From NCBI GenBank assembly GCA_016284315.1, contig JAEEOO010000049.1, positions 1 to 64,000 of the forward strand: 64,000 nt of DNA. The letters are read 5' to 3'. Both the position numbers and the translations under genes were made by a program. The notes beneath the pieces were generated by a model. The model did no database searches. It saw nothing but the letters and a program-made list of their open reading frames with translations, and was not told the origin of the DNA. Positions 2,888 through 49,814 of this stretch are shown here, one piece after another. The number at the start of each line of letters is the position of its first letter. The stretch's first letter is position 1. The DNA comes from Lachnospiraceae bacterium. Its GTDB lineage: Bacteria > Bacillota > Clostridia > Lachnospirales > Lachnospiraceae.

Positions 2888-3667
2888 ATGCCTCGAAAGC
2901 CTAGAACTTTCAGTTCTACGGGCATATATCACATCATACTTCGTTCTGTTAATCAACGTATCATCTTTGAAGAAGATTCCGATTATCATAAGTTTTTATT
3001 TGTTCTAAGAGAATGTACGAAAAAATATGATGTTTTGGTATATGCCTATTGTTTGATGGATAATCATGTTCATCTTTTAATGAAAATACCACCCGACAAC
3101 ATGTCCGCTTTTTTCCAAAGCCTGGGAACAAGATTTGTCCGATGGTACAACAATAAATACATGCGCATTGGTCATCTGTTTCAAGATCGTTATTATAGTG
3201 TTGCTATCGAAGATGATAGAGCATTTCTTTCGGTTATCGCCTACATTCACAACAATCCCATAAAAGCGAATATTTGCAGTTTCTGTTCACAATACCGTTG
3301 GAGTAGTTTCAACGCCTATTATGGAGAAAATACGTCATTTATTGACGTTTCTTTGGCGTATAATATCGCAGGTTCTAAGGCAGCCTTGATTCAGTTTTTC
3401 GCAAAAGAACCCATTAATTCTGAAAATGAGTTGTTTTCCGATGACCACCGTGATTCGCAACATTTTTTGACAGATGAGAGAGCCATTAGAGTATTTAAAT
3501 CTTTGACGCATCTCTCATCATTATCCGATACAAAAGATCTTTCCAAAAAACAAAGGGATACATTCATTAGACAACTAAAAGATGAACACATGACAATAAA
3601 ACAGATTTCAAGATTAATGGATGTGAGTGAAAAAACCGTACGAAGAGCATGTCAATTGACCACCTAA
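2888..3667 (+). CDS. REP-associated tyrosine transposase (Y1/HUH, IS200-like family)
   Basis: HUH motif MDNHVHLLMK, catalytic-Tyr region YIHNNPIKAN, C-terminal HTH MTIKQISRLMDVSEKTVRRA. Confidence 0.92.
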   Translation: MPRKPRTFSSTGIYHIILRSVNQRIIFEEDSDYHKFLFVLRECTKKYDVLVYAYCLMDNHVHLLMKIPPDNMSAFFQSLGTRFVRWYNNKYMRIGHLFQDRYYSVAIEDDRAFLSVIAYIHNNPIKANICSFCSQYRWSSFNAYYGENTSFIDVSLAYNIAGSKAALIQFFAKEPINSENELFSDDHRDSQHFLTDERAIRVFKSLTHLSSLSDTKDLSKKQRDTFIRQLKDEHMTIKQISRLMDVSEKTVRRACQLTT

Positions 3668-3685
3668 CCCCGTCCCTAGTGGTCA
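3657..3685 (+). repeat. REP-like 29-bp palindrome B1
   Basis: TGACCACCTAACCCCGTCCCTAGTGGTCA; contains the RAYT stop codon TAA. Confidence 0.92.
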
Positions 3686-3689
3686 AAAA

Positions 3690-3718
3690 TGACCACCTAA
3701 CCCCGTCCCCAGGGGCCA
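3690..3718 (+). repeat. REP-like 29-bp palindrome B2
   Basis: TGACCACCTAACCCCGTCCCCAGGGGCCA; 4-nt AAAA spacer after B1. Confidence 0.92.
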
Positions 3719-5874
3719 TTGTATTCAAGGACGACTTGGCGGACTTCTTCTTCGGCTTCGATGAAGACTTCGACGCACTTGGGATCGAAGTGGGTGCCTG
3801 CATCATGGCGCAGGATATCAAAAGCCTGGTCCACGGTCATGGCAGGCTTGTAGACACGCTTTGATGTAAGTGCATCAAAAACATCCGCCACCGCCATGAT
3901 CCTGGCAGAAAGCGGAATAGCCTCTCCCTTGAGGTTTTCGGGGTATCCCGTTCCGTCCCATTTTTCATGGTGGTATGCCGCCATGTTTCGAGCCTCTTTA
4001 AGATAACTTTCTCCCTGGACGGTGCTGATGGCGGTATCCATGATCTTCTTACCCGCAAGAGCATGAGTTTTCATGATCTCATACTCTTCCTTCGTAAGCT
4101 TTCCGGGTTTATTCAAAATGGTATCCGAGATGTTTATCTTACCAACATCATGAAGGGGCGCAGAAGTCTCAACTTCCGCCATATATTTCTCGGTAAGGAT
4201 ATCCAAATAGTATCCCTTCTTCTTTAATCCATCCAAAATAATACGAACATAAGCCGCAGTCTTCTGAACGTGAGCTCCCGTATCCGAATCGCGGTTCTCA
4301 ACCATATTTGCCATGGTCAGGATAAGACCGCTTTGCATCTGGGAAACTTCTATTGCGTATCTCCTTATATCCCTGACCTGATTTGCGGTATCGGAAGTCA
4401 TCTTACAGAGAGCCTTGTAAAGGTCTTCCACCTCATCATCGGTTCTGATATCAAGGTCCTTGATCTCCTTTACATGTTTATCCATGGAAGCCTGGTCCGT
4501 ACCGTCTTTCAGAAAGCTCTCGGTGCATGCAGCCATGGAACTGATGGGATAAACCATGGCCATTTTTGAAACCCTGAGGCCAAGGCTCATGATTATAAGT
4601 GAAAATCCCGAGAAAGCAAGAGCCGCTTTAACAAGATAATCCTTGATGTAACCGGACAAAAATGTGATGCTTACATCTGCTCCCGCATAAGCAACGCACT
4701 TATTCTCGGAATTGTAGATAGGTGCATAATTTGTCAGAAAATAACCATAGGTGCTTTGTACTTTTATAGTATCAATTCTTTCGCCGTTTAAAAGTGCCGG
4801 TACATACTGTAAAAAATCCTCGTCAAATGGAATGACCATTCCATGCTCATTTTTAAGATCAACATTTGAGTCTGTATCAAAGACAAGATGGCATCCGTCT
4901 TCTTTTACCTGATATACGTACAGATATTGAAGTCCGTATGTTGATTCATGATAGTCTTTCAAAAGGTTATAAGTTTCTTCATAACCTTCTGCTTCATAAC
5001 CCTTTTCCAGGTACTCTTCGATTCTGTCTCCATCAACCACTTTTGCCGCAAACTCCGACGAATTGACAACAAAGGCGGTATAATTCTTGTAAATCTCCTC
5101 AACATACATCTTTACACTGAGAAGACCCATGATAAAAGTAAGGATTATGGCGGCGCCGCCGATAAGAAAAGCAAATCTGGATTCCAGTCTTTTAGGATGC
5201 CCACTATCCCTTTTTGAAAGGTCTCTGATCTGCTTCTCACTAAGAGGTTTCTGCATCCACTTGGCGAGCATAAAATCATTTTTTACCTTTTCAGGGATCA
5301 ATTTGTAGATCAGCCAGGCCGCAAAAGCACAGACGGCCTTATCAAGAATATTCAATCCGAAATCCATCAAAACAAAGACAAAAACCTTTGACAAGCCAAC
5401 CTTTTCCGCCAAATTGGCTGCGTAGATCTCCATCTCGCTGTATTGGGGCTTTCCAAGTACAAGAAGCTGGATAAGTCCGCCCATTACTCCGCCTACTATG
5501 CCGGAGCCGATAATAACCAGCACCATACCGCTGAATTTCTTTAGCATCCCTTTATAGTTGCAAACAGCGACAATAAGTCCAATAACCGCATTCAAAACCG
5601 CATAGTATACTGCATATTGATTAAAAGGGGTAAATAGAACATTGGAAATAACTCCGGTCATGACACCGGGAAAAACACCGCCAAGGATAGCGGCCAGCAT
5701 AGTTCCTATTGTATCAAGATAAACTGGAAAACCCGAGATGGTAACGACATACGAAAGGATAACATTGATGGCAACACCGAAAGCCACCAGCAGAACTGTT
5801 TTCATCCGATTTTTTTCAAAACTTTTGAGCACTTTCTTCACCGCAAAATACCTCCGGTAAAACACCTTTCGCAT
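3697..5874 (-). CDS. Multi-TM sensor protein with C-terminal HD-GYP phosphodiesterase domain
   Basis: HDVGKI, HHEKWDGTGYP, GTHFDPKCVE motifs; N-terminal TM helices. Confidence 0.9.
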   Translation of the reverse strand: MRKVFYRRYFAVKKVLKSFEKNRMKTVLLVAFGVAINVILSYVVTISGFPVYLDTIGTMLAAILGGVFPGVMTGVISNVLFTPFNQYAVYYAVLNAVIGLIVAVCNYKGMLKKFSGMVLVIIGSGIVGGVMGGLIQLLVLGKPQYSEMEIYAANLAEKVGLSKVFVFVLMDFGLNILDKAVCAFAAWLIYKLIPEKVKNDFMLAKWMQKPLSEKQIRDLSKRDSGHPKRLESRFAFLIGGAAIILTFIMGLLSVKMYVEEIYKNYTAFVVNSSEFAAKVVDGDRIEEYLEKGYEAEGYEETYNLLKDYHESTYGLQYLYVYQVKEDGCHLVFDTDSNVDLKNEHGMVIPFDEDFLQYVPALLNGERIDTIKVQSTYGYFLTNYAPIYNSENKCVAYAGADVSITFLSGYIKDYLVKAALAFSGFSLIIMSLGLRVSKMAMVYPISSMAACTESFLKDGTDQASMDKHVKEIKDLDIRTDDEVEDLYKALCKMTSDTANQVRDIRRYAIEVSQMQSGLILTMANMVENRDSDTGAHVQKTAAYVRIILDGLKKKGYYLDILTEKYMAEVETSAPLHDVGKINISDTILNKPGKLTKEEYEIMKTHALAGKKIMDTAISTVQGESYLKEARNMAAYHHEKWDGTGYPENLKGEAIPLSARIMAVADVFDALTSKRVYKPAMTVDQAFDILRHDAGTHFDPKCVEVFIEAEEEVRQVVLEYNGPWGRG

Positions 5875-6046
5875 TTCATGACAAATAACGGTAGTTCATA
5901 AGTAAGTCTTATAGAAGATTATATCACAGAAGAACGCTCAAACCAAAAAATAATTGAAATTACGCGAAATATTTAATACAATAAGAAAAAAGCATTAAAA
6001 GTACTAAAAGTCTGAAATATCTGAACAAATTACGGAGGTCGCTAAG

Positions 6047-6517
6047 ATGAAAATAAGACGTGCTTCTGAAAAGGATATCGAAAAGATTTTAAGCCTTTTA
6101 TCACAAGTTCTTGAGATTCATGCCAAAATAAGACCTGATATTTTTGTATCCGGTACCACCAAATACACAAGAGCAGAACTTTTGGATTTGTTCTGTGACG
6201 ATCAAAAACCTGTTTTTGTTGCCGTTGATGACGAGGACACTGTCCTTGGCTATGCTTTTTGTGCAATTAAGCATCAGCCATTCTCAACAAACATGATCCC
6301 TTTTAAGACCCTCTTTATCGATGATCTTTGCGTTGATGAGCAAAGCCGCGGAAATCATGTGGGACGTTTTTTATTTGACTATGTAAGAGACTATGCAAAA
6401 AACCTGGGCTGTTACGAAGTCACCTTAAATGTCTGGGAAGGCAACACACCAGCTCAGGCCTTCTATGATAAACTTGGATTCAAGCCTAAGGAAACCCAGA
6501 TGGAATTTATTCTGTAA
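6047..6517 (+). CDS. GNAT family N-acetyltransferase
   Basis: DDLCVDEQSRGNHVGRFLFDYV...FYDKLGFKPKE. Confidence 0.9.
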   Translation: MKIRRASEKDIEKILSLLSQVLEIHAKIRPDIFVSGTTKYTRAELLDLFCDDQKPVFVAVDDEDTVLGYAFCAIKHQPFSTNMIPFKTLFIDDLCVDEQSRGNHVGRFLFDYVRDYAKNLGCYEVTLNVWEGNTPAQAFYDKLGFKPKETQMEFIL

Positions 6518-6555
6518 AACAAACTGTTACAGCACTCGCGTTATACGCATCAAAA

Positions 6556-6585
6556 AAGCCCTGCTTTTGTTACAAAGCGGGGCTT
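6556..6585 (-). terminator. Terminator of trpS
   Basis: AAGCCCCGCTTT...AAAGCAGGGCTT followed by T-run on minus strand. Confidence 0.8.
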
Positions 6586-6607
6586 AAATATTGTCTTTAA
6601 CCCGGTC

Positions 6608-7609
6608 TTAAATCTGATAAAAACCAACTTTCTTATAAACTTTGCGGAGAGTCTTGTTTGCGATATAAGCAGCCTTCTCCGCTCCTTTTTTGTACACTTC
6701 GTCGAGGTATGCCTTGTCGGCGATAAGACGGTTTGCCTCTTCTCTGATGGGAGTAAGAGCCTCAACAACGGCATCTCCTACAGCGGGCTTAAATACGCCG
6801 TATCCCTGGCCTTCGAACTCTTTCTCAATCTCGTCGTAGCTCTTGCCGGTAATAGTAGCGTAGATGTTCATAAGGTTAGCTACTCCGGGCTTGTTCTCTT
6901 TATCGAAATGTACACATCTTTCCATATCGGAGTCGGTTACGGCACGCTTGAACTTACGGCGGATATCATCAGGGCTGTCCATAAGGAATACACAACCGTT
7001 AGGATCTGACTTTGACATCTTGCTTCCGGGAGTATTAAGTCCGTAGATACGAGCGCCCACCTTGCTGATATAGGGCTCGGGAATACGGAATACATCCCCG
7101 TAGATGTTGTTGAATCTCTCGGCGATATTTCTGCAAAGCTCAACATGCTGCTTCTGGTCCTCACCAACGGGTACGTAGTGAGGCTGGTAAAGAAGGATGT
7201 CCGCTGCCATAAGAGAAGGATATGTAAAGAGTCCTGCATTGATATTATCCTTATGCTTCTCGGACTTATCCTTGAACTGCGTCATACGGCTGAGCTCACC
7301 GAACATAGTATAGCAGTCGAGAACCCATCCGAGCTGTGCGTGAGCAGGTACATGGGACTGAAGGAAAAGGGTATTCTTTTCGGGATCAAGTCCACAGGCA
7401 ATATAAAGAGCAAGCATCTCTATCGAGCGTTTTCTAAGCTCCTTGGGATCTTGTCTTACGGTAATTGTATGTAAGTCTGCCATAAAGTAATAGCAGTCAA
7501 ATTCATTAACACGATCGGCCCAGTTTTTAATCGCTCCAAGATAATTTCCAAGATGAAGGTCTCCGCTTGGCTGGATTCCTGAGAGCATGATCTTCTTTTC
7601 TGTTTCCAT
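6608..7609 (-). CDS. trpS: Tryptophanyl-tRNA synthetase
   Basis: SGIQPSGDLHLGNYLGA and KMSKS motifs. Confidence 0.97.
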   Translation of the reverse strand: METEKKIMLSGIQPSGDLHLGNYLGAIKNWADRVNEFDCYYFMADLHTITVRQDPKELRKRSIEMLALYIACGLDPEKNTLFLQSHVPAHAQLGWVLDCYTMFGELSRMTQFKDKSEKHKDNINAGLFTYPSLMAADILLYQPHYVPVGEDQKQHVELCRNIAERFNNIYGDVFRIPEPYISKVGARIYGLNTPGSKMSKSDPNGCVFLMDSPDDIRRKFKRAVTDSDMERCVHFDKENKPGVANLMNIYATITGKSYDEIEKEFEGQGYGVFKPAVGDAVVEALTPIREEANRLIADKAYLDEVYKKGAEKAAYIANKTLRKVYKKVGFYQI

Positions 7610-7705
7610 CGTATTATTTCTCCTTCAAGTAAAACTATTTAACGAGCTAAAGCGCTCATTTCAAAAAGTATATCATATCTTCCCCGCGGAAAAAAGCCAT
7701 TTTTA

Positions 7706-8677
7706 CTACATTTTAGCTTGATGTACGACAACCTGGTTGAAGGGGATTTCGATACCTGCTTTGTCGAAACCTATTTTGATTTCACGATTAAGTAATCTTG
7801 CGGCTGAGAAGATATCTTTTTCGTTTACTTTTCCGATAACTTTAAGCTCTACACCGCTGTCGCCGAGGGCCTGAACTCCTAAATACTTGGGATCTTCAAG
7901 GAAAACGTCTGGATACTTTTCTTTGATGGCTGGAAGAAGCGTTTCAAATACTTCTTCAAGTTTTTCAATGTCCGTTCCGTAGGATACGCTTACAGCTGTA
8001 ACCGCAACGCTGTCGATAGCCGAGCGATTAAGGATATTTCTGAGGTCGGAGTTATTGATAAGTTTAATGTTTCCGCCCACATCTTTAATGGCAGTAGTTC
8101 GAATACCGATGCTTTCGACAGTTCCTCTGTATCCGCCGACCTCGATAATATCGCCTACATTAAACTGGTCTTCAAATACCAGGAATATGCCTGTTATAAG
8201 GTCTTCCACAAGGCTCTGGGCTCCAAAGCCTACAACAAGTGTTAAGATTCCGACGCTGGCAAAAATTGTGCTTACGTTCACTCCTATTGCTGCAAGGCAC
8301 CAGAAGAAGCCGACAATGAATGTGATGTAGCTGATAGCACTCTTTAAAAGCGTTAAAAAACTTTTTGCTTTTGAGCTCTTAGGTTTTAACCTGTCAGCAA
8401 TAAATACCACTATAGTTGAAATGGTCACCATCAGAAGAATAATGGCAATAATCTGGAAAAGCGTTGCAAAATCAAACTTAAAGGTCTTTGAAATTTTGCT
8501 TACATCGCCAAAGATTCTGCTCCAAGTGCCCTGAATGCTTTCTTTGACTTCAGCGGGAAGGAAGGGTATTATCGCGGGATTTGTGATTATCAGGAATAAA
8601 AAGAACGCAATAATCAGTCCCACAATTCTCCCTACATTAACGGGCTTTCTTTCCTTTTTCTTAATCTCTTCGCTCAT
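7706..8677 (-). CDS. MscS family mechanosensitive ion channel
   Basis: GFGAQSLVEDLITGIFLVFEDQFNVGDIIEVGGYRGTVESIGIRTT; RBS AAAGGAGG supports the MSEEIKK start. Confidence 0.93.
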   Translation of the reverse strand: MSEEIKKKERKPVNVGRIVGLIIAFFLFLIITNPAIIPFLPAEVKESIQGTWSRIFGDVSKISKTFKFDFATLFQIIAIILLMVTISTIVVFIADRLKPKSSKAKSFLTLLKSAISYITFIVGFFWCLAAIGVNVSTIFASVGILTLVVGFGAQSLVEDLITGIFLVFEDQFNVGDIIEVGGYRGTVESIGIRTTAIKDVGGNIKLINNSDLRNILNRSAIDSVAVTAVSVSYGTDIEKLEEVFETLLPAIKEKYPDVFLEDPKYLGVQALGDSGVELKVIGKVNEKDIFSAARLLNREIKIGFDKAGIEIPFNQVVVHQAKM

Positions 8678-8678
8678 A

Positions 8679-9953
8679 TCAATCCTCCTTTGGTGAGATT
8701 TTAATGATGGTCGAACTCGATCCATCTTCAAATCTGAATCCCCATATATTGTGATTGTTTATGTTTTGGAAATAGCGCACTAATTGTTTATCATGTGAGC
8801 CTGTAACTTCCAATGGTTTCAAGTAATAAATACCTTTTTCAAGGGTTGAATCTCTTACCTCAATTGCTCCACCGTTAGTTTCAATGGTAACACCGCTGTC
8901 TATCATGAGGCAGCTGGGACTGCCTTCACATTCAAGTCTTATACAAGGATTGGTATTGTTTTCAATGGCCAGATATCCATCACCTGTAATCGTAAGGCTT
9001 CCGCCGTACATAAAGCCCCAAGCAACAATTCCTTTTAGTTTATTCTCGCCCACGAGACGCAATTTGAAGCCGTTGCCCATTAGGTTAATGTTTAAATATT
9101 CGCCGGAATAATTGTCCAGCGTCAGCGTATTGGTGGCTTCGTTGTAATATGCACCCGGAATGGATTCATTGACAATTTTGGCTATCATCAAAGGTTGAGG
9201 GACACTACCATCTGCCAAATCCTGCGAGTTTCTGTATGCAACAAGTCCCGCACCTTCGAACCAGGTCATGGCTGGATATTTATCCCCCTGATTGAAATTG
9301 TACAAATCTTCCAAAACCGCATCCGGCATATAATAATAGTCCGATATTACTTCCCCGTTTTCCAAATGAAGCCCGGCATCATCTATCAGGAATTGTCTGA
9401 CTGATCTGTAAATGTAATCCGGTTCCTTGGATGAATATTCCATCATAACGTATTGCTCATCCAGGATACCGTAACCCGGCACGTATCCGTTAGGCTCGAG
9501 GTTCGTAAGAACAGGGAAAGCATCATCCGGGCCGTCGATAGGCGCCTTCTCTTCGTCTATGTCGGGTTCTATGCTATACACATCGGATACTTTCTCTTCA
9601 ATTGGTTCCTGAACCGGTATGTCTGTATTATCCTCAAGGGGCTCCGGATAGGCTATATCCATGTGATGATTGTCAAAAGAATCGTTAAATGGATCTTCTG
9701 CCAATAAATCATATCCGAAAGCATCTTTAACCATGATAACCGCAAGACAGACTGCCGCAGTCTGCATTATCTTGACGCCATGCCTCTGAATAAACTTCTT
9801 ACCGGATTTACTCTTTTTATTTATATGTTCTTTTTCCTTTGGCGGGACATACTCATGCCCTGTATCCGCACCCTCTTTTACAAAAGAAAACTCCTCGGAT
9901 AAACTGCCAAATTCATCATAGATTTGGGATTTTTTAGGATTTTCTTCAGCCAA
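8679..9953 (-). CDS. Hypothetical single-TM protein
   Basis: 424-aa ORF with one internal TM; overlaps the MscS RBS region. Confidence 0.75.
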   Translation of the reverse strand: MAEENPKKSQIYDEFGSLSEEFSFVKEGADTGHEYVPPKEKEHINKKSKSGKKFIQRHGVKIMQTAAVCLAVIMVKDAFGYDLLAEDPFNDSFDNHHMDIAYPEPLEDNTDIPVQEPIEEKVSDVYSIEPDIDEEKAPIDGPDDAFPVLTNLEPNGYVPGYGILDEQYVMMEYSSKEPDYIYRSVRQFLIDDAGLHLENGEVISDYYYMPDAVLEDLYNFNQGDKYPAMTWFEGAGLVAYRNSQDLADGSVPQPLMIAKIVNESIPGAYYNEATNTLTLDNYSGEYLNINLMGNGFKLRLVGENKLKGIVAWGFMYGGSLTITGDGYLAIENNTNPCIRLECEGSPSCLMIDSGVTIETNGGAIEVRDSTLEKGIYYLKPLEVTGSHDKQLVRYFQNINNHNIWGFRFEDGSSSTIIKISPKED

Positions 9954-10106
9954 CTTATCATTCCTTTAATCGTAATGCTCAGTTGAACGAGGGATAAGAT
10001 CTGCTCCCTCGTATATGCTACAAGAACTTTATATCATTATACCACAAATCTTGTTTGGAGTTAATCTTCAAAGATCATAAGTGCAACTTGTATCTGTATC
10101 AAAAAA

Positions 10107-10135
10107 GAGCCACGCCTTTTTCAAAGCGTGACTCT
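10107..10135 (-). terminator. Intrinsic terminator (second of a tandem pair)
   Basis: GAGTCACGC...GCGTGGCTC followed by TTTTTT on minus strand. Confidence 0.75.
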
Positions 10136-10165
10136 CATTTATATAACTATTAAACAAAAAGAGTT

Positions 10166-10193
10166 ATACGAGGGCCATTTCCGGCCCTCGTAT
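10166..10193 (-). terminator. Terminator of the flotillin-like gene
   Basis: ATACGAGGGCC-ggaaat-GGCCCTCGTAT. Confidence 0.7.
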
Positions 10194-10205
10194 TTAATTA
10201 TTTGG

Positions 10206-11711: not shown

Positions 11712-11795
11712 TATACCCTCCTTCTGCAGCGACCTATTTCGCTTGCCTGTAACCAAAGGATAGCATGGTCGCCTCTTCCATTAAATCACAAAAAA

Positions 11796-11821
11796 GGCGA
11801 AATAGGTATATCTATTTCGCC
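11796..11821 (-). terminator. Terminator of tex
   Basis: GGCGAAATAG...CTATTTCGCC followed by TTTTTT. Confidence 0.8.
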
Positions 11822-11862
11822 GTAATTCTGCAATATAAAATTGGTCATAAAGCCGAAAGAAT

Positions 11863-14037: not shown

Positions 14038-14076
14038 TAATTCTCTCCTGGCAAATGTCTTTTTGCATAAAAACAG

Positions 14077-14147
14077 AGCAGAGCACGGGAATCGAACCCG
14101 CCTCCTCGGCTTGGGAAGCCGATGTACTACCGATGTACTAGCCCTGC
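14077..14147 (-). tRNA. tRNA-Gly (CCC)
   Basis: Cloverleaf folded by eye; anticodon loop TTCCCAA; no encoded CCA. Confidence 0.88.
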
Positions 14148-14216
14148 ATCTTTATCCTATGATATTTTAATAAAACTCACCCTTTCGGTCAAGGTAAACA
14201 TACTCTTCAAGTCGGC

Positions 14217-18058: not shown

Positions 18059-18080
18059 TGTCCACTTACCTCCGTCCCCG
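18059..18080 (+). repeat. REP-like element C0, truncated (22 bp)
   Basis: TGTCCACTTACCTCCGTCCCCG abutting C1. Confidence 0.75.
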
Positions 18081-18109
18081 TGACCCACTAACCCCGTCCC
18101 CGGGGGACA
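18081..18109 (+). repeat. REP-like 29-bp element C1
   Basis: TGACCCACTAACCCCGTCCCCGGGGGACA. Confidence 0.92.
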
Positions 18110-18113
18110 AAGA

Positions 18114-18142
18114 TGGCCAACTAACCCCGTCCCCGGTGGTCA
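18114..18142 (+). repeat. REP-like 29-bp element C2
   Basis: TGGCCAACTAACCCCGTCCCCGGTGGTCA; 4-nt AAGA spacer after C1. Confidence 0.92.
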
Positions 18143-18826
18143 TTTTTCGTTCCAGACGTTCCAGTTCATGCCGTCGTAGGCGAGGCCTTCTCCGGGAAGG
18201 TCGGTAAGTTGCTTACCGTTATCTTCGCTTTTTAAATAATTCATGATAACAGGATAAGTCTTCTCATAGCCGTCGAAGCGGATAGCGCGGAAGCCAAGCT
18301 CTCTTGCGACATCGATATTGGCCTGAACATCGTCGGTAAAAATGCACTCCTCAGGATCAAGACCGTATTTATCAATAAGAGCCTTGTAGATAGCCGGATC
18401 GGGCTTAATAAGCCCCACATCGCAGGAGAAAACTCCTCCGTCCATAAACTCGAGGAAATCCCTGCTGTCGGGGGCCTGCCTCATAACAAACTTAGAGTAG
18501 TTTGAAAGGAAGTAAACATTGTATCCCAGAGCCTTAAGCTCCTTAACCCAATTTGCGGAATACTCCGTTCTTAAGAAGCATTTATCAAGGTGATCAAAGG
18601 CGTAGTTCATGGACTCAACGTACTCACCGGCCTCTTCACGAAGATGCATAAGTACTTCTTCCTCAGGAATAACGCCTCTGTCCAGTTCCTTCCACCAGCC
18701 GCTTTCCCAAACGGCCTTTGTTATCTTCTCCCTAACTGCCGCATCATCAAACATCTCTTCCATGAACTTCAGCCATTCAAAGGCCGTAAGAACTTTTCCT
18801 ATATCAAAAATTACATTCTTAATCAT
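18140..18826 (-). CDS. HAD superfamily hydrolase (subfamily IA)
   Basis: VIFDIGKVL, SNYSKF, KPDPAIYKALIDKYGLDPEECIFTDD. Confidence 0.9.
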   Translation of the reverse strand: MIKNVIFDIGKVLTAFEWLKFMEEMFDDAAVREKITKAVWESGWWKELDRGVIPEEEVLMHLREEAGEYVESMNYAFDHLDKCFLRTEYSANWVKELKALGYNVYFLSNYSKFVMRQAPDSRDFLEFMDGGVFSCDVGLIKPDPAIYKALIDKYGLDPEECIFTDDVQANIDVARELGFRAIRFDGYEKTYPVIMNYLKSEDNGKQLTDLPGEGLAYDGMNWNVWNEK

Positions 18827-38439: not shown

Positions 38440-38501
38440 CTAAAAGAAAAGTGCGGAACACCCCCTTGCCTTTTGAATAGGCTCTCGGGGAAACTCCACA
38501 C
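38440..38501 (-). ncRNA. Candidate small hairpin RNA or leader attenuator
   Basis: GTGTGGAGTTTCCCCGAGAGCCTATTCAAAAGGCAAGGGGGTGTTCCGCACTTTTCTTTT directly downstream of TTGATT-18-TACAAT. Confidence 0.5.
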
Positions 38502-38560
38502 TAGATTGTAACACATGTGATTTACATAAATCAATGATTTTAAGCGATTTTCAGGTTTAT

Positions 38561-39937: not shown

Positions 39938-39969
39938 TAAAACTATTCCCCAAATCTTTCCTAAAAAAT

Positions 39970-39992
39970 GCACCCGACTTATTGCCGGGTGC
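39970..39992 (-). terminator. Terminator downstream of the 40008-40421 gene
   Basis: GCACCCG...CGGGTGC followed by ATTTTTT. Confidence 0.8.
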
Positions 39993-40007
39993 CTATACCT
40001 TATTTAA

Positions 40008-40421
40008 TTAAGCTTTTACAACCTTTACTGCAACAGCGTCCGCATTTGCAGTCTCAACACTGACGGAAAGTTTTCCGCCAAGTCCGGTCTGTACCTTTCC
40101 GGTGCTTGCGCCGTTTACGAAGATTTCGTAAGAAGTCTCATCTTCGAGTCCCAAAGTGATCTGAGCATCCTCAGCTCCCTCAACGGTGAACTCGATTCCG
40201 TCTGCGGTCTCTTTAAATCCGTTAACTGCTGTTCCGGGAACGGATTCGTAAAGGAACAATCCATTTTTCTCCAGCTTGGTGATCTCGTTAAAGGTCTTAA
40301 CCTTAAGAAGATCGCCGCCAACGGGGAAGTCCTCAACCTTAGACTTTTGGGCTAATTCGTAGTTTCCAAAACTAATGCTGCCATCCGCTTCTTTGCGGAT
40401 CAACTCATTTACAACAGCCAT
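40008..40421 (-). CDS. Conserved hypothetical protein
   Basis: 137-aa ORF with RBS; terminator downstream. Confidence 0.8.
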   Translation of the reverse strand: MAVVNELIRKEADGSISFGNYELAQKSKVEDFPVGGDLLKVKTFNEITKLEKNGLFLYESVPGTAVNGFKETADGIEFTVEGAEDAQITLGLEDETSYEIFVNGASTGKVQTGLGGKLSVSVETANADAVAVKVVKA

Positions 40422-40523
40422 TTTAAATTTTCCTCCGAAAAAAATACCTTGGGGGTCAATGCCCCTGCTACACTTCTATTTTACTTGTCATAAAAGTTAA
40501 AGTAAATAGATTTAATGAGAATT

Positions 40524-42959
40524 TCATTTAACAACAAACGTTACTTTTCCGTCCTTGGCACCTACCGAAACTTTGTCTCCCGGCTTAACCTTTTTGGAGA
40601 GGATTTCCTCCGCAAGAGCATCCTCGATCTCGGACTGAATGCCTCTTCTCAAGGGTCTTGCACCCATCTTCTTGTCAGCGAATTTCTTGACAATGTGCTC
40701 TTTAAGAGCAGGAGTGAAGGTGAGTTTGATATTCATCTGGTTCTCGCATCTGGTGGCAAGTTCCTTGGTAAGAAGGTTAACGATGGCCTTCATGTCATCG
40801 TCAGTGAGCTGATGGAATACAAGGATATCATCAATACGGTTGATAAACTCGGGCTTGAAGGATTTCTTAACTTCCTCCATTACTGCGGACTTCATCTTCT
40901 CATAGTCCTTCTTTTCACTCTTTTCAGTGGCAAAGCCAAGGTTCTTGGGATCCACGATCCTCTGAGCTCCTGCGTTAGAAGTCATGATAAGAATTGTATT
41001 CTTAAAGGAGATCTTGCGTCCCTTTGAATCCGTGATATGGCCTTCATCAAGCACCTGAAGAAGGATATTGAATACATCGGGATGGGCCTTCTCAATCTCG
41101 TCAAAAAGGACTACGGAATAGGGGTTCTTTCTGATCTTGTCGGTAAGCTGTCCGCCCTCTTCAAAGCCTACATATCCCGGAGGTGAACCGATCATCTTTG
41201 AAACGCTGTGGCCTTCCATGTACTCCGACATGTCGACTCTTATAATAGCGTCCTCAGAGCCAAACATAGCCTCTGCAAGAGCCTTTGAAAGTTCGGTCTT
41301 ACCAACACCGGTAGGTCCTAAGAAAAGGAAGGAACCGATGGGTCTGTTAGGGCTCTTGAGGCCTACTCTGCCTCGTCTCATGGCCTTGGAGATGGAATCA
41401 ACCGCCTCATTCTGGCCGATGACACGCTTATGAAGGATGGACTCAAGCTTAAGAAGTCTCTCAGTCTCCTTCTCCGCAAGCTTTGTAACAGGGATCTTTG
41501 TCCACATGGCAACAACCGCTGCGATGGAATCCTCGTCGATAGAGTAAGTGTAATCCCCTGCTTTTTCCTGCATCTTATTTTGGAGGCGCTCATACTTCTT
41601 GATCAGCGCATCCTGTTTTTCTTTTAATTCATGAGCCTGTAAAAAGGCCTCCATCCTGATGGAAAGTTCGATCTGACGGTCCATCTTCTGGATCTGGTCA
41701 GCAAGTTCGCGTAATTTACCGGGCTTTTCCATGCTGCGAAGCTTTGCACTTGCAGCGGCTTCGTCGATAAGGTCAATGGCCTTGTCAGGAAGATTACGGT
41801 CGTTGATATATCTTGCTGAGAGCCTTACAGCTGCCTCAACAGCAGACTGAGTTATCTCAACATGATGATGCTCCTCGTACTTGCCCTTGATGCCTTCAAG
41901 GATACGTATAGCCTCTTCCTGGGTGGGTTCTTCAACGGTAACGGGCTGGAAACGTCTCTCAAGCGCCGCATCCTTCTCAACGTACTTTCTGTACTCAGCG
42001 ATGGTGGTAGCACCAATTAGCTGAAGTTCTCCTCTTGCAAGAGAAGGCTTCATGATATTTGAAGCATCGATGGCACCTTCTGCGCCACCTGCGCCGATAA
42101 GTGTGTGGAGCTCATCAAGGAAAAGGATAACATTTCCATCCTCGATAACCTCGTGGATCACGCGCTTGATACGCTCCTCAAACTCACCCCTATACTTACT
42201 TCCGGCAACCATTCCTGAAAGGTCAAGGGTAAGAAGTCTTTTATTTCTTACTGTCTCGGGAACATCGCCGGAAACGATCCTCTGGGCAAGGCCCTCAACA
42301 ACCGCTGTTTTACCTACACCGGGCTCACCGATGAGGCAGGGATTGTTCTTGGTCCTTCTGCTAAGGATCTGGATAACACGGCTGATCTCCTCATTTCTTC
42401 CGATAACGGGATCAAGCTTGCCATCTTCAGCAAGAGCAGTAAGATCACGGCTGTACTGGGAGAGCATGGACTGCTTTCCCTTTGCGGTCTTGGCTCCGAG
42501 ATCTTCCTTTGCAAGAGCAGGATCCTCACCGATAGCGGCAAGAGTGTCCGCATAGATCTTCTGTACATTGGTTCCGGGGGCTGCAAGAAGTCTTGCTGCC
42601 ACATTCTCACCCTCTTTAATAATGGCAAGAAGGATATGCTCGGTACCAATCTCTTTCTGGCCGAATCTCTCGGCTGTTCTTCCGGCTTCTTCAAGAATGA
42701 GCTCTGCTCTGGGGGAATAGATTCCCCTCTCTCTTATAGCAACATTCTTGTCGAAAGAGATCATGTCCTTGATCATCTCTTCGTATTTATCCGGAAATAC
42801 ACCATTGTCTCTTAAAACTTTACCGGCTACACTGGTTTCATCCTTGAGCAGTCCGGCTAAAATATGTTCTGACCCGATATAACCCTGATGGAACTTGCGC
42901 GCACAATTGGCAGCTTCTTTAAGAGCTTCCTGCGCTTTTTGAGTAAATTTACCCTGCAA
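40524..42959 (-). CDS. clpC: ATP-dependent Clp protease ATPase subunit ClpC
   Basis: Clp N repeats, two AAA+ domains ([30 protein letters not shown]). Confidence 0.95.
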
Positions 42960-42985
42960 TTTTCTATTCCTCCTATGGGATTATT

Positions 42986-43357
42986 TTAAAAACCGTATTC
43001 TTTATAAATATCATCGATCATTTTGTGGAGTTCTTCTTTAGAAACGTTTCTGCACACGGCTTCAAGTACAGTAGAACTTAGAATATTGCGAATTTGACGC
43101 AAATGTTCCTCCTTAGCCTCTGAAACGGATATGACCGCTCCACGACGCCTGTCGACCTTTACGTATCCTTCGCTTCTTAAAACGGAGTATGCCTTATTGA
43201 CGGTATGCATATTAATGCCGATCTCATCCGCCAAGGTTCTTACACTGGGAAGCACATCGCCCTCGTGAAAAGTGTTGGTGGCAATACCAAGGATTATTTG
43301 ATTTCTCAGCTGAAGATACAAAGCTTCGTCACTGTTAAAATCTATCTCGATAAGCAT
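42986..43357 (-). CDS. GntR family regulator (YtrA-like)
   Basis: N-terminal wHTH LYLQLRNQIILGIATNTFHEGDVLPSVRTLADEIGINMHTVNKAYSVLRSEGYV. Confidence 0.9.
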   Translation of the reverse strand: MLIEIDFNSDEALYLQLRNQIILGIATNTFHEGDVLPSVRTLADEIGINMHTVNKAYSVLRSEGYVKVDRRRGAVISVSEAKEEHLRQIRNILSSTVLEAVCRNVSKEELHKMIDDIYKEYGF

Positions 43358-43398
43358 CCCGATCCTCCAAAAAGATCCAAAGGTCTTTTTAGACTACA

Positions 43399-43434
43399 AG
43401 ACCTCTGTTATAGAAATGTTATAACAGAGGTCTT
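43399..43434 (-). terminator. Terminator of the SH3-domain protein gene
   Basis: AAGACCTCTGTTATA...TATAACAGAGGTCTT. Confidence 0.8.
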
Positions 43435-43476
43435 TTGATGTCAATTTGTATTACCAAATTTTATTATCTTTTAAGA

Positions 43477-44880
43477 TTATTCGCCCTTGCCGTTGAGGAA
43501 TCCGTAATCGAAATCGTCATCATCTGGCATCTGGCGCTTGGGAGCTTCCTGAGGTCTCTGAACAGGTCTATCGCCCTGCATGGGTCTTGCACCGTTAGGT
43601 CCTACGGGTCTTCCCTGGGGTGCTCCTGCGGGTCTTCCGTTAGGCCCTACAGGTCTTCCCTGAGGTGCTCCTGCGGGTCTTCCGTTAGGTCCTACAGGTC
43701 TTCCCTGAGGTGCTCCTGCGGGTCTTGCTCCATTAGGTCCTACAGGCCTTCCCTGAGGTGCTCCTGCAGGTCTTGCTCCGGCAGGTCTTCCCTGGGGTGC
43801 CCCTGCGGGTCTTGCTCCGGCAGGTCTTCCCTGGGGTGCCCCTGCGGGTCTTCCCTGATGTGCTCCGGCAGGTCTTGTTCCTGTGGGTCTTCCGTTTCCT
43901 GCTGCAAGGCGCTGTCTTCTCTGCTTCTCAGCATCTGCAAATGCTGCTCTGTCTCCTGAATCTCTGAGCTTCATGAAGAAGTATACGCATCCGCCTACTG
44001 CTGCGATTGCAATGATGATAAAGATGATAAGAGCAGCTCTGAGTCCTGATACCTGCTTCTGATACTTTGTAGCAGATGCCTTATAAGAATCAAGGTTCTC
44101 AAAAATCTCGCTGATATTGTACTGAAGGTTATTGTTGTAATCGAGAAGCATCCAAGCTCCGTCTTCACCTTCAGTGGTATCCCAATCTTTCTTTTCTTCT
44201 ACAACAGGCTCTTCCTCAACAGGAGTTTCTTCCTGAACGGGCTCTGAAGTCTCGGTTGTGAGATCGGTAAGTTCACCTGAAGGGGTTACGAAATCCGCAC
44301 GGGTAAAGCCTACGATATCCTTGCCCTCTGCATTGGTGTACTGGATGTAATACCATTCTCTTCCGTCGGTACCGTTCTTAACACCGTTGATGGTAACTGC
44401 TGCGCCGTTAGCTACGCTGTCAATGATGGTACTTGATGTTGAAGCATCCTGACGAACTCTTACGTTCTGCTCACTCTTGATGGTTCCTGTAACAGGGTTT
44501 ACAAGTCTGATGCTGGGGTCCCCTGCGGTAACGTTTCCGTCTGCTCCGATGGTTCCTACGGTTGATCCGTCGGTAACCTGTGCAAGGTCGCTTCTTACAT
44601 ATCCGCTCTTTCCGTCAGCGGTTGTGATCTGGTACCAAACTCCGCCTTCGCCATCAACCTGTCCGTTGATGGTAATGGAATCATTGGCAGCCAAAGTTGT
44701 AACAACGTCACAATTGGTATTGGACTGTGCACGAACTCGTGTACCATCCTTTAAGATTTTTCCTGAGCTTGCAGCGAAGCTGTGTAAAGTAAGTGCAAAT
44801 ACTGCGATGATCACGGCTGTTGCAGTTATAATACCCGCGATGAGCTTTCTGCTCTCGGAGTATGATCTACTAACGTTCAT
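43477..44880 (-). CDS. Bacterial SH3-domain membrane protein with G/R/P-rich repeat tail
   Basis: Two SH3b modules, internal TM, (GRPAGAPQGRPVGPN)n tail. Confidence 0.88.
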   Translation of the reverse strand: MNVSRSYSESRKLIAGIITATAVIIAVFALTLHSFAASSGKILKDGTRVRAQSNTNCDVVTTLAANDSITINGQVDGEGGVWYQITTADGKSGYVRSDLAQVTDGSTVGTIGADGNVTAGDPSIRLVNPVTGTIKSEQNVRVRQDASTSSTIIDSVANGAAVTINGVKNGTDGREWYYIQYTNAEGKDIVGFTRADFVTPSGELTDLTTETSEPVQEETPVEEEPVVEEKKDWDTTEGEDGAWMLLDYNNNLQYNISEIFENLDSYKASATKYQKQVSGLRAALIIFIIIAIAAVGGCVYFFMKLRDSGDRAAFADAEKQRRQRLAAGNGRPTGTRPAGAHQGRPAGAPQGRPAGARPAGAPQGRPAGARPAGAPQGRPVGPNGARPAGAPQGRPVGPNGRPAGAPQGRPVGPNGRPAGAPQGRPVGPNGARPMQGDRPVQRPQEAPKRQMPDDDDFDYGFLNGKGE

Positions 44881-45014
44881 TTATATCGTCCTCCCACTAA
44901 AACCACATAATGTAGACATCATACATATAATAACATACTACATAATGTTTATCCAGCGATTTTAGCGATTAATTGTTTAAAAAATATTAATAAGTTGTTA
45001 CGCTCATCGGAAGC

Positions 45015-46292
45015 TTATGCCTCATCGATGGCCTTTCCGATGTCGTGGCGCATATACTTATTGTCAAAATTAACCCACTCTGTAGCTTCGTATGCCTTTG
45101 CTCTTGCTTCCTTAAGGTCCTTTCCTACTGCGGTAACGCCAAGGACACGGCCACCGTTTGTTACAATGTTTCCGTTCTCGTCAAACTTGGTTCCTGCATG
45201 GAAGCAGAAGTAATCATCTTTTCCTTCGAAGTTCTCAAGGCCGGTGATCTTGAATCCCTTTTCATACTTTACGGGATAACCGTCGCTGGCAAGGACTACG
45301 CATACTGCTGCCTTATCTTCAAACTGAAGGTCAAGCTTGTCCAGTGTTCCATCGATGCAGGCTTCCATAACATCGATGATGTCGTTCTTAAGTCTGGGTA
45401 GGACAACCTGTGCCTCGGGATCTCCGAATCTTGCATTGTACTCAAGGACTCTGGGTCCCTTTGGTGTAAGCATAAGTCCAAAGAAGATAACGCCCTTGAA
45501 AGGACGTCCCTCTGCCTTCATTGCATCAACAGTGGGCTGGAAAATATATTTCTGACAGAAATCATCAACTTCTTTTGTGTAGAAAGGTGTGGGTGAGAAG
45601 TTACCCATTCCGCCGGTGTTAAGACCCTGGTCTCCATCCTTTGCACGCTTGTGGTCCTGAGCTGAAGACATGATCTTTACGATGTTTCCGTCAACGAATG
45701 ATAAAACGCTGACTTCACGTCCGGTCATGAACTCCTCGATGACCATGCGGTTTCCGGCTGAACCGAACTTCTTGTCCTGCATGATCTCCTTTACGCCATC
45801 GATAGCTTCTTCAAGGGTATTGCAGATAAGAACGCCCTTTCCGAGAGCAAGGCCGTCAGCCTTAAGAACGATGGGGAACTCAGCCTTAGTCTTGAGATAT
45901 TCGATGGCCTTGTCTGCGTCATCAAAGTTCTCGTACTTGGCTGTGGGTATATCATATTTCTTCATGAGATCCTTGGAGAAAGCTTTGCTTCCCTCGAGGA
46001 TAGCTGCGTTTTTCTTAGGTCCGAAGGCTCTGATGCCTGCTGCCTCAAGCTCATCAACAAGGCCGCCTACAAGAGGATCGTCCATTCCGACGATAACAAG
46101 GTCGATGGCTTTTTCCTTTGCAAATGCTACGATCTTGTCAAATTCCATGGCTCCGATGGGAACACATTCCGCAAGGGCTGCGATTCCGGCGTTTCCGGGC
46201 GCGCAGTAAATCTTGTCGGCTCTTTTACTCTTGGCTACACTTGTTGCGATGGCATGTTCACGTCCGCCGCTTCCAACGATAAGAATGTTCAT
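45015..46292 (-). CDS. purD: Phosphoribosylamine-glycine ligase
   Basis: MNILIVGSGGREHAIA...GGMGNFSPTPF; start trimmed to 46292. Confidence 0.96.
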   Translation of the reverse strand: MNILIVGSGGREHAIATSVAKSKRADKIYCAPGNAGIAALAECVPIGAMEFDKIVAFAKEKAIDLVIVGMDDPLVGGLVDELEAAGIRAFGPKKNAAILEGSKAFSKDLMKKYDIPTAKYENFDDADKAIEYLKTKAEFPIVLKADGLALGKGVLICNTLEEAIDGVKEIMQDKKFGSAGNRMVIEEFMTGREVSVLSFVDGNIVKIMSSAQDHKRAKDGDQGLNTGGMGNFSPTPFYTKEVDDFCQKYIFQPTVDAMKAEGRPFKGVIFFGLMLTPKGPRVLEYNARFGDPEAQVVLPRLKNDIIDVMEACIDGTLDKLDLQFEDKAAVCVVLASDGYPVKYEKGFKITGLENFEGKDDYFCFHAGTKFDENGNIVTNGGRVLGVTAVGKDLKEARAKAYEATEWVNFDNKYMRHDIGKAIDEA

Positions 46293-46362
46293 GATGTATC
46301 TCCCTTTATGGTAATTCGGTGCTACGCACCATAGGTAACAATAACAATAAACCCGTCCTAAG

Positions 46363-47976
46363 TCAATGATTTTGACCCCCGGGAACATTTTTCAATTTCG
46401 TATAAAAAACTACTGCCAGTGCCAAATACACTGCCGCCATAATGCCAACGGTTATTGGCAATATCTTGAATGCGATTCCTATAGCGGCAAGTCCGCCTCC
46501 CACCATCATTGTGCTAAGCATGTTGGGAAGTAAATAACCGGCCACTGCTCTTCCCTGCTTGATGACCTGGATCTCGTTGTCCCAGTCAAGCTGCATATAT
46601 TTTGCTCCCATGTACATGCCAAAAGCAGTGGAAAACAGGTTTGCCGTTACGGTATAACATATAGCCACTGCCCATTCCAAAGGGCTTGCTTTCAGTGAAA
46701 TGCAGGATGTTATGGTTGCAAACAAAGCCACAGGCATGAAAAGGAACAGATTAAAGATCATTTTTCCTTTAAACACATCCATCATGTCAAGGGGCAGGGA
46801 CTTGATGATCCAATAATTCTTACCCTCAAGGGACATGGAGCAGGCAGTTGAAGGGACCATTCCCGTAAAGAAATAAACAAGAATAGGGATCACAAGTGAT
46901 GCTGAAACATTGCTCAGATCCACTTCCATTCCCGCCATGGAGCTGACCACTTTATTTACATCAAGAAAGAGGATTGCAATTCCAAGCACCACCGTCATAA
47001 CGGCGCCCATTCCGATGTTGGTAATATAGGTAGTTGAACCTGTGAAACGTTTTGCCTCTTTTGCGCAAATACTCATTGGAACGCTTCTTCTCTTGAAATC
47101 TTTGTCTATGACTTTTGCTTTGGTAATATGGGCTGTGCTCAGTTTTGTGTTGATGCTTTTGTAAAACTTTGAGAACACGAAGAAAAAGACTTCATACGCC
47201 ACAACTGAGATGCAGACAAGCAAAAGAATGGAGACAATGTCTTTCTCATTGACAGCCTTTGCAAACCATTTTGCCATGGGGACCACATTTCCCACATTTG
47301 AAAAGGCATCTCCCGAAACTTTGACCACTTCCTCGATCTTGTTGTTCTTGATCACATCCTCTACAAGGAATCTTGTAAAGAACATAGGGATCACCAGAAT
47401 AAAGATAAGGATTGAAATAACAATATTTTTATGTCTGAATCCTGCGCTGATGCCGCCTATAAGAGCACTGATGGCGGTTGCCAAAAGCATGGGGATTATG
47501 GGAAGGAAAAACGTAAGGACAACCCATATCAGGATTGAAATTGCTGACGGTTTTCCTCCAATGATAAACCCGATAAGTGCGGAAAAAGATATGACGCAGG
47601 TCCAGATCAGGTTATTTATGTACATGTAAAGGAATCGGCTTGATACCACTTCTTTGATGGTAAAGGGCATGGACATGAGCATGTCGTATTCCTTGTAGCC
47701 GAACATAATGCCGTGAGCTTTGAAAAAAGTAAAGAAGAATGAAAGGGCAAAGACAACGGATGCGGGAATTACCGGTACCGTTTCTGCCATTCCATAATAA
47801 GAAAGCCCAAAGCATGAGCCTCCAACGTAAATGGCAAGCATAAGATATATAACTGAAAATCCAACGATATTTCCTGTTGCCAGCTTTCTCTTTTTCTTGT
47901 CATCACTGTGTTTAAGAATGTTTAGATTGCCGGTTGAAGTAAGAACTGTTTTAAGGAGCAGGATTTGATCATTCAT
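46363..47976 (-). CDS. ABC-2 type transporter permease
   Basis: Multi-TM 537 aa overlapping the ATPase gene. Confidence 0.88.
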   Translation of the reverse strand: MNDQILLLKTVLTSTGNLNILKHSDDKKKRKLATGNIVGFSVIYLMLAIYVGGSCFGLSYYGMAETVPVIPASVVFALSFFFTFFKAHGIMFGYKEYDMLMSMPFTIKEVVSSRFLYMYINNLIWTCVISFSALIGFIIGGKPSAISILIWVVLTFFLPIIPMLLATAISALIGGISAGFRHKNIVISILIFILVIPMFFTRFLVEDVIKNNKIEEVVKVSGDAFSNVGNVVPMAKWFAKAVNEKDIVSILLLVCISVVAYEVFFFVFSKFYKSINTKLSTAHITKAKVIDKDFKRRSVPMSICAKEAKRFTGSTTYITNIGMGAVMTVVLGIAILFLDVNKVVSSMAGMEVDLSNVSASLVIPILVYFFTGMVPSTACSMSLEGKNYWIIKSLPLDMMDVFKGKMIFNLFLFMPVALFATITSCISLKASPLEWAVAICYTVTANLFSTAFGMYMGAKYMQLDWDNEIQVIKQGRAVAGYLLPNMLSTMMVGGGLAAIGIAFKILPITVGIMAAVYLALAVVFYTKLKNVPGGQNH

Positions 47977-48688
47977 CTTTTACCGCCTCCAGGAATACTT
48001 CTTCAAGGGTCTTGTCGCCGATAAGTTCGGAAACATTTCCGTTTGCGATGATCTGTCCTTTCTTGATGATGGCGATCTTGTTGCAAAGTCGCTCCGCCAC
48101 ATCAAGAACATGGGTAGAGAAGAATACCGCGCTACCCTTTTCGCACATTTCGTGCATGATCTCCTTTAATGTAAATGCCGCCTTGGGGTCAAGACCTACA
48201 AAGGGCTCGTCCATCACAAGAAGCCGGGGCTCATGGATAAGGGCCCCGATTATGGCAACTTTCTGTTTCATTCCGTGGGAATATGAGGATATAAGATTCT
48301 TTAAAGCATCCTCAATTTCGAAACGCTTAGCGTATTCCGTGATCCTCTCTTTGCGCTCTTCCTGTCCGATGCCGAATGCATCAGCAACAAAATTAAGGTA
48401 CTGGATACCTGTAAGGTTTTCATAAAGATCCGGATTATCCGGAATATACGCGGTTACCTTCTTGCATTCAAGAGGATTTTTCCTAACATCATTTCCGGCG
48501 ATCTCGATCTTTCCACTGTCGAAATCCATGACGCCAACCACCGCACGTATTGTAGTGCTCTTTCCTGCACCGTTGTGGCCGATGAATCCAAAGATATCGC
48601 CGCTTTCAACTTCAAGGCTCACATTATCGCAGGCCTTTTTCTCCGCACCGTACATTTTGGTGTAGTTCTCAATCTTTAAGATGCTCAT
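47969..48688 (-). CDS. ABC transporter ATP-binding protein
   Basis: GHNGAGKST, SYSHGMKQKVAIIGAL, LLVMDEP; AAAGGAGG before MSILKIEN. Confidence 0.95.
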   Translation of the reverse strand: MSILKIENYTKMYGAEKKACDNVSLEVESGDIFGFIGHNGAGKSTTIRAVVGVMDFDSGKIEIAGNDVRKNPLECKKVTAYIPDNPDLYENLTGIQYLNFVADAFGIGQEERKERITEYAKRFEIEDALKNLISSYSHGMKQKVAIIGALIHEPRLLVMDEPFVGLDPKAAFTLKEIMHEMCEKGSAVFFSTHVLDVAERLCNKIAIIKKGQIIANGNVSELIGDKTLEEVFLEAVKDE

Positions 48689-48710
48689 AAATCCTCCTTT
48701 TGTCACCTTT

Positions 48711-48739
48711 TGTCCCCCGGGGACGGGGTTTGATGGTCA
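48711..48739 (-). repeat. REP-like 29-bp element D
   Basis: Minus strand TGACCATCAAACCCCGTCCCCGGGGGACA. Confidence 0.9.
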
Positions 48740-49714
48740 TTTTTTGTATCCCGTTTCTTCCATGTAGGACTTTTTGAGGTTTAGGAATTCTTCGAGGCCG
48801 CGCATGATGATGAAGAGGCGAGCTCTGTCCTCGAATTCTTTTCGCTCGGTGGGAAGAGGCATTTCCTTCATCTTTTTGTCAAGCTCGGCAAAATCGGAAA
48901 GCAGATCTTCCACCGTGTTGTCCATGGAATACTGCACGGATACTATTTCAAAAAAGTCCGATAAAAGCTGCGCTGTCACCGGAACAGTCTCTATCTTTGA
49001 CAGATGCTTGTACATTTCGTACAGGGTATCCGACTGTTTTTCTCGCATGGAAATATATTCAATATCACTGAGGTCTCCCTTTGACAACTGGTTCATGTAA
49101 TTGGTATGTGCAAGGGCAGAAGCCTCATCAATGGTCTTTCTTAACGTCTCAAAACACTTTCCGTCATAATCAGGCATATCAGGATCCATGATCCTAAGAG
49201 ACATTCTGTGAAGCGCTCTCTTTATCAGTTCGTCAGTCTCCTTCTTCATCTCTCTCATATAATCAGCATCTTTTCTGATGAAAAGATTAGCGATGATTCC
49301 AAGACCGACTCCGATAAGAAATAGCAAGACCTCATTTAAAAGAGCTTTGGGCTCCATGGTCTGTAATGTCAAAAAATGGGAAATTAGGACTGAGTCCATT
49401 GCCATTGCGCTGTTCCAATTAAGGATCTTGCATAGCAGGATGAAGATCAAAAGATAAACAAAAAATCCAATGGTGGTAAAACCGATAGTATAAAAACAAA
49501 CCGCAGCGATCGCAAGGGCAGCCGCAAAAGCAAGGAATCTGTCCCTTGCTGTTTGAATCGTCTCCCGCTTTGTGAAAGCCACGGAAAGGATTGCGACTAT
49601 GCCCGCAGACACAGCAAACTGCAGCTGCAGGCACTCAGCTATGATTATAGCAATGATAGCCGCAAGAATAATTCTGATCGCATGAAATAAATTTTTCTTA
49701 AACGTTGAAGGCAT
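48737..49714 (-). CDS. FUSC/aromatic acid exporter-like membrane protein
   Basis: N-terminal TM bundle and cytosolic helical domain. Confidence 0.82.
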   Translation of the reverse strand: MPSTFKKNLFHAIRIILAAIIAIIIAECLQLQFAVSAGIVAILSVAFTKRETIQTARDRFLAFAAALAIAAVCFYTIGFTTIGFFVYLLIFILLCKILNWNSAMAMDSVLISHFLTLQTMEPKALLNEVLLFLIGVGLGIIANLFIRKDADYMREMKKETDELIKRALHRMSLRIMDPDMPDYDGKCFETLRKTIDEASALAHTNYMNQLSKGDLSDIEYISMREKQSDTLYEMYKHLSKIETVPVTAQLLSDFFEIVSVQYSMDNTVEDLLSDFAELDKKMKEMPLPTERKEFEDRARLFIIMRGLEEFLNLKKSYMEETGYKK

Positions 49715-49719
49715 AAAAA

Positions 49720-49748
49720 TGTCCTCTTGACCCCGTCCCCGGGGGACA
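49720..49748 (+). repeat. REP-like 29-bp element E1
   Basis: TGTCCTCTTGACCCCGTCCCCGGGGGACA. Confidence 0.93.
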
Positions 49749-49752
49749 AAAA

Positions 49753-49781
49753 TGTCCTCTTGACCCCGTCCCCGGTGGACA
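49753..49781 (+). repeat. REP-like 29-bp element E2
   Basis: TGTCCTCTTGACCCCGTCCCCGGTGGACA; AAAA spacer. Confidence 0.93.
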
Positions 49782-49785
49782 AAAA

Positions 49786-49814
49786 TGGCCCACTAACCCC
49801 GTCCCCGGTGGACA
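49786..49814 (+). repeat. REP-like 29-bp element E3
   Basis: TGGCCCACTAACCCCGTCCCCGGTGGACA; AAAA spacer. Confidence 0.93.

Follow-up and report, generated by a model that had tools for sequence, protein, structure and literature searches.

The closest described counterparts of the repeats analyzed here are the GTAG REPs of gammaproteobacteria. Like those, they are short imperfect hairpins found as singles, tandems and inverted pairs, with an adjacent IS200-like RAYT gene in a REPtron arrangement and a location near gene 3' ends. The ends of GTAG REPs often give stop codons to flanking ORFs, some GTAG REPs lie within ORFs, and there are RAYT genes that overlap with a REP (Di Nocera et al. 2013, PMC3733652). 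Because of that report, stop codons supplied by REPs are already known as a kind of phenomenon. For E. coli, a reduction of translation by REPs lying no more than 15 nt from a stop codon has been reported (cited in PMC12306157). A limited literature search returned no paper on REPs in Butyrivibrio or other Lachnospiraceae, and a search of that extent does not prove absence. The window treated below is the whole 64,000-nucleotide stretch of Lachnospiraceae DNA that was analyzed.

The repeat family and its RAYT gene

The window is contig C39 of G000, a 2.25 Mb draft assembly of 79 contigs that is 81% complete. This genome carries 97 repeat units in 54 clusters that occur as singles, tandems and inverted pairs (orientations -, +, --, ++ and -+), all genome-wide counts resting on regions around pattern hits rather than on one continuous genome sequence. 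The unit is an imperfect hairpin of REP type, 29 bp long, with the consensus TGTCCACTTAACCCCGTCCCCGGTGGACA and a nearly invariant loop core, CYCCGTCCCC; tandem copies follow each other at a period of 33 bp. The first three bases of a unit are TGN, in many copies TGA, and its loop contains TRA or TAG; AAAA is present on the outer AAAA-side flank in 34 of 60 units in G000 and 44 of 79 in the sister genome G014. Most clusters are intergenic and a few copies are intragenic and in frame. A short (20-40 bp) dispersed repeat that is mainly extragenic and has many copies in these arrangements belongs to the REP/BIME family. No Rfam model matched at any REP element. Among REPs flanking RAYT genes at 29 loci, stem pairing is 74% Watson-Crick against 65% in shuffled arms, with one of 5000 shuffles as high, although relatedness was uncontrolled. 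Covariation within one genome was dropped as proof of the hairpin, since pairing in G000 (77%, against 74% with shuffled partners) is not significant; in G014 the arms are often mismatched.

Three intragenic occurrences were also noted. An inverted pair within a P-type ATPase gene (L036:1567-1628, G000:C58) is read through in frame and codes about 21 residues (MALGDGVSGPQMSTQPRPQGT). A single in-frame unit lies within a 268-aa gene (L032:3017-3045, G000:C42) whose product looks like a metallo-beta-lactamase fold (GHSTPSLGVI). In G014, an in-frame unit in the acidic linker of a 567-aa gene (L206:1510-1538) codes NDTATPSPGVI.

The RAYT gene of the window (2888-3667, plus strand) encodes a Y1 (IS200-type) transposase of 259 aa with a C-terminal HTH (PF01797, 7.7e-16); its score against the NCBIfam model NF047646, REP_Tyr_transpos (4.7e-22, 78.4 bits), falls just under the cut-off of 80. 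Upstream lies REP cluster A (2724-2785), an inverted pair in - + orientation into which no gene reads, and about 0.5 kb from this cluster is a c-di-GMP-I riboswitch aptamer (2181-2256, minus strand; Rfam RF01051). When the REP core CCCCGTCCCC was counted in 31 genomes of the genus against a reversed-sequence control, it stood far above the control only in G000 (49), G006 (92) and G014 (114), all three of which have an orthologous RAYT. G005 also has a RAYT and no exact CCCCGTCCCC; its copies carry CTCCGTCCCC. G014 also has inverted pairs with TCTGAAAA spacers. The Y1 RAYT is thus both flanked by REPs and found together with them, as in a REPtron, and from this flanking and co-occurrence we infer that RAYT probably mobilizes these copies.

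Nearly every element position is common to G014 (L186-L215) and G006 (L267-L296), but the copies found there vary in number, orientation and sequence, suggesting a turnover of copies in place. Since most positions are occupied in both sister genomes, by copies that have been altered, no clean empty site was found at the nucleotide level between them, and the order of events is consequently inferred.

Gene ends within elements

Five genes of the window terminate inside an element. RAYT ends CAA TTG ACC ACC TAA, its stop codon (3665-3667) lying within unit B1 (3657-3685, plus strand), which codes (L)TT and the TAA. On its opposite strand, the neighboring unit B2 (3690-3718, plus strand) codes the terminal (N)GPWGRG and TAG of a gene for an HD-GYP domain protein (HD_5) with an ECF-S-like N-terminus (3697-5874, minus strand), which ends AAT GGC CCC TGG GGA CGG GGT TAG. 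Of the three units that make up array C (18059-18142, plus strand), the first is degenerate and the last begins with the TGA at which a HAD-family hydrolase gene (18140-18826, minus strand) stops; this gene ends GAA AAA TGA. Similarly, the gene for an ArAE_1/FUSC aromatic acid exporter (48737-49714, minus strand) ends AAA AAA TGA, and this TGA opens unit D (48711-48739, minus strand), which turns its AAAA side toward the gene. Finally, purN (49793-50425, minus strand; TIGR00639, 3.7e-59) ends GTT GTC CAC CGG GGA CGG GGT TAG, with HRGRG and the TAG coded by the last unit (E3, 49786-49814) of array E, three tandem units at 33 bp (49720-49814, plus strand). An earlier note had reported these five endings, and they are right to the base; the five genes are also all of the 3'-facing neighbors that elements have in the window.

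Two other features of the window may be recorded. Downstream of purN (region 49720-50425) most relatives have purD, but this genome has the REP array and a transporter gene, a possible rearrangement at the repeat. A tandem repeat of 39-48 bp occupies 43574-43876 within an ORF of 467 aa (43477-44880).

Five of five is ruled out as a general rule by the genome-wide count. Gene calling in the surroundings of each cluster relied on ORFs and codon scores (the authors' own calls on draft genomes), and d denotes the position of the stop relative to the element, such that at d = -3 the opening TGA of the element is the stop. Among 58 3'-facing sides in G000, four of them unusable or intragenic, 12 genes have their stop inside the element, 12 have it 0-5 nt short of the element and one gene reads through; outside the window, 7 of about 49 stop inside. 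The 12 inside stops comprise seven opening TGAs, three TAG or TAA codons 22 nt into the element and two TAA codons 11 nt into it. In G014, where the sample was the first listed contigs only, 12 of 60 sides stop on the opening TGA, two more do so at copies with a degenerate core and 17 stop 1-5 nt before the element. The element-borne stop is thus no rule. It is a tendency, with about 22% of stops inside the element and about 44% from -22 to +5 nt, and most array-adjacent genes outside the window stop before the repeat.

This tendency is sharply positioned. Copies accumulate at gene 3' ends, most densely on the stop codon or no more than 5 nt from it, a range that accounts for about 44% of 3'-facing sides in G000 and about 52% in G014. 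In both genomes the stops peak at d = -3, the commonest class; a second peak covers +2 to +4, and positions -2 and -1 hold no stop. Within the range -3 to +40, the bin from -3 to +5 holds 19 of 31 gene ends in G000 and 29 of 43 in G014, where a uniform spread would place 20% (P = 9e-7 and 4e-11, values that ignore shared ancestry and overstate significance). Because some sites are common to both genomes, the two peaks are not fully independent. A second preferred place is seen at six loci (L031, L045, L046, L049, L052 and L062; d = 27-42), where elements begin directly past the T-tract of an intrinsic terminator.

Entering an element nearly guarantees a stop in some frames only. Read from the AAAA side, the three phases contain a stop in 25, 8 and 81% of G000 units, and from the opposite side in 27, 59 and 5%. 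In G014, TGA stands at both ends of nearly every unit, and the remaining frames are open. At least 13 of 15 G014 genes that run into an element do so in the TGA phase (P = 3e-5), the two exceptions being a C-terminal extension (L187) and the in-frame copy in the acidic linker mentioned above; in G000, the TGN-phase cases read TGA in seven of seven. What needs explaining is thus the placement of elements at the native stop, rather than the fact that the repeat contains a stop. That the repeat merely has stops in many frames, which five genes happened to enter, is very improbable: five of five is a small post hoc sample and the genome-wide figure is 12 of about 54, but such chance is contradicted by the positional peak and phase bias in two genomes and by the RAYT loci described below, 28 of 40 of which stop in a REP.

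Native C-termini

Comparison with orthologues lacking the element reveals two different outcomes. In three genes the native C-terminus has been replaced, as the element-free orthologues carry different tails. PurN ends VVRK, VVRKA, VIRKA or similar in relatives and VVHRGRG in G000; the HD-GYP protein ends KYQDS or KYSKSK in relatives and EYNGPWGRG in G000; and a UvrD-like helicase (L045) ends PSRFISML in relatives and PSRFVHRGRG in G000. In each case 3-4 native codons were lost and 6-7 element-coded residues plus a stop were gained. None of the orthologues compared has a native tail identical to an element-coded one, and VVHRGRG ends no element-free PurN. The PurN proteins of G014 and G006 likewise end on a related element, with another tail (SAF). 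For the ArAE/FUSC gene, no orthologue was found in the six relatives searched.

Where the opening TGA is the stop codon, the protein mostly has its native length, which places the element exactly at the stop position. Such genes include carB (L055), a PP-loop protein (L031) and the L063 protein in G000, and a364, a481, a202, a482, a228 and a350 in G014. The exceptions are shorter than their relatives: the HAD hydrolase by one residue against the closest of them, L040 by three or more, a137 by five and a299b by one. One gene ends AAA TAA TGA in G006 and AAA AAA TGA in G014, a difference in which the TGA of the element acts as a backup stop once the native stop is lost.

The earlier note had offered two readings, that the element inserts at stop codons or that it spreads as a ready-made gene terminus, and both occur, in different genes. 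Insertion at stops agrees with the peak at d = -3 and the mostly unchanged lengths, although it does not describe every gene. The replaced tails of PurN, the HD-GYP protein and the helicase bear out a ready-made terminus; spread as a gene terminus does not follow from them, since elements are also found past terminators, in front of genes and as in-frame copies within genes.

Origin of the element-borne stops

The distribution is probably best explained by REP spread through RAYT and retention of copies where the protein is nearly unchanged, with no evolved device for terminating genes. Copies would be mobilized by the RAYT at 2888-3667, a domesticated transposase, and would insert beside A-rich sites, after which purifying selection would keep those that leave the protein nearly unchanged. 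The least harmful sites would include stop codons and the T-tracts of intrinsic terminators. A copy landing on a stop codon or just a few codons ahead of one would be nearly neutral, the gene still ending cleanly because of the TGN or TGA at the element's opening and the TRA or TAG in its loop. The gene would then end either at an element TGA that occupies the site of the native stop or with a short tail, coded by the element, in place of the last codons. The RAYT gene itself would be a special case, whose stop has stayed within its own REP throughout the family.

Targeting of AAAA alone was rejected. Applied to 160 background gene ends, it places 2 at d = -3 and 15 at d = +2, and so accounts for the latter peak but not for the former, the commonest class. 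As an AAAA preference fails at d = -3, there is room for a preference for T, TG or TGA, or for genes that end in TGA. Direct insertion by RAYT after TGA (or T or TG), with TGA stops as hot spots and the element's TGA being the native stop or a copy of the target, is accordingly possible, if not what we consider probable. It would fit the size of the d = -3 class and the empty positions beside it in both genomes, and also the gene-side arm, which is TGA in all seven G000 cases while the far arm starts otherwise; furthermore, two element-free orthologues have TGA at the corresponding position (a202 in G000 and the L031 gene in G005). However, TAA or TAG is the stop at this position in most element-free orthologues, though stop codons turn over, nearly all G014 elements begin with TGA wherever they are located, and PurN, the HD-GYP protein and the helicase end in other registers.

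It is rather unlikely that the elements are kept as selected termini because a hairpin at the stop site regulates translation or stabilizes the mRNA 3' end. The proportion of sides with an element at the stop or up to 5 nt away would be expected from such a role, as would the maintenance of positions between G014 and G006 while copies vary in number, orientation and sequence, and the E. coli effect on translation has a positional requirement of under 16 nt (cited in PMC12306157). Tolerance alone yields the same pattern, however, and the many copies past intrinsic terminators would be absent from the mRNA.

RAYT gene ends across Lachnospiraceae

A scan of genome contigs recovered 52 RAYT loci. 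The nearest named relatives of the RAYT belong to Butyrivibrio and other Lachnospiraceae, and many of the isolate names refer to rumen or gut. The 3' end could be read in 40 family members, and in 28 of these the stop codon falls within the gene's own flanking REP (27 called by script, plus L328, whose core is altered); all 27 script-called REPs have the same orientation. This rate exceeds that of other genes (Fisher P of about 2e-6 against G000 and about 3e-6 against G014, relatedness ignored). The stop may be the opening TGA, a TAA or TGA in the loop, or a TAG near the far arm. On the RAYT tree these registers require 16 changes ('outside' counted as one state), several of them forced by well-supported branches; termination inside the REP therefore persists or recurs while the frame changes. 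A REP core also lies no more than 300 nt upstream of RAYT at 38 of 43 loci.

It is conceivable, though doubtful, that this arrangement is functional, with termination in a hairpin that the transposase recognizes coupling its expression to its substrate (autoregulation or cis preference). If so, the RAYT gene and its REP would be tied together as one unit, and the maintenance of the arrangement despite register switching would be explained.

Comparison with known REP systems

The GTAG superfamily is defined by an unpaired GTAG at one end, which these repeats lack; the unpaired tag is AAAA, the loop is the nearly invariant CYCCGTCCCC, the host is a member of the Lachnospiraceae and, unlike in GTAG REPs, the stop is TGA, TAA or TAG depending on register (PMC3733652). 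With the CGTC superfamily the repeats share the letters CGTC, a short palindromic form and a location near or inside ORFs. However, that superfamily is characterized by CGTC as an unpaired end tag and by no transposase (PMC3733652), whereas in the present repeats CGTC forms part of the loop and a RAYT accompanies them, so that its definition does not apply. The inverted pairs with a short spacer (12 '-+' clusters in G000) resemble the REPINs of Pseudomonas (PMC3116915), but tandem direct 33-bp arrays are equally common in G000. Position relative to the stop is shared with the E. coli REPs cited in PMC12306157, with the difference that here the stop is often inside the element.

To this known kind of phenomenon the present analysis adds C-terminus replacement proved by orthologues and a RAYT terminus inside the REP across most of a family, with switching of registers, beyond what is described for GTAG REPs (PMC3733652). 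What seems to be new is that 28 of 40 related Lachnospiraceae RAYT genes end in their own flanking REP while registers switch repeatedly on the tree. The genomes analyzed provide a measured case, within the Lachnospiraceae, in which a mobile repeat rewrites protein C-termini and serves as a stop codon, and a testable reason is offered for RAYT genes and REPs staying together. For annotation, protein tails such as HRGRG or GPWGRG should be taken as a warning that they are coded by the repeat.
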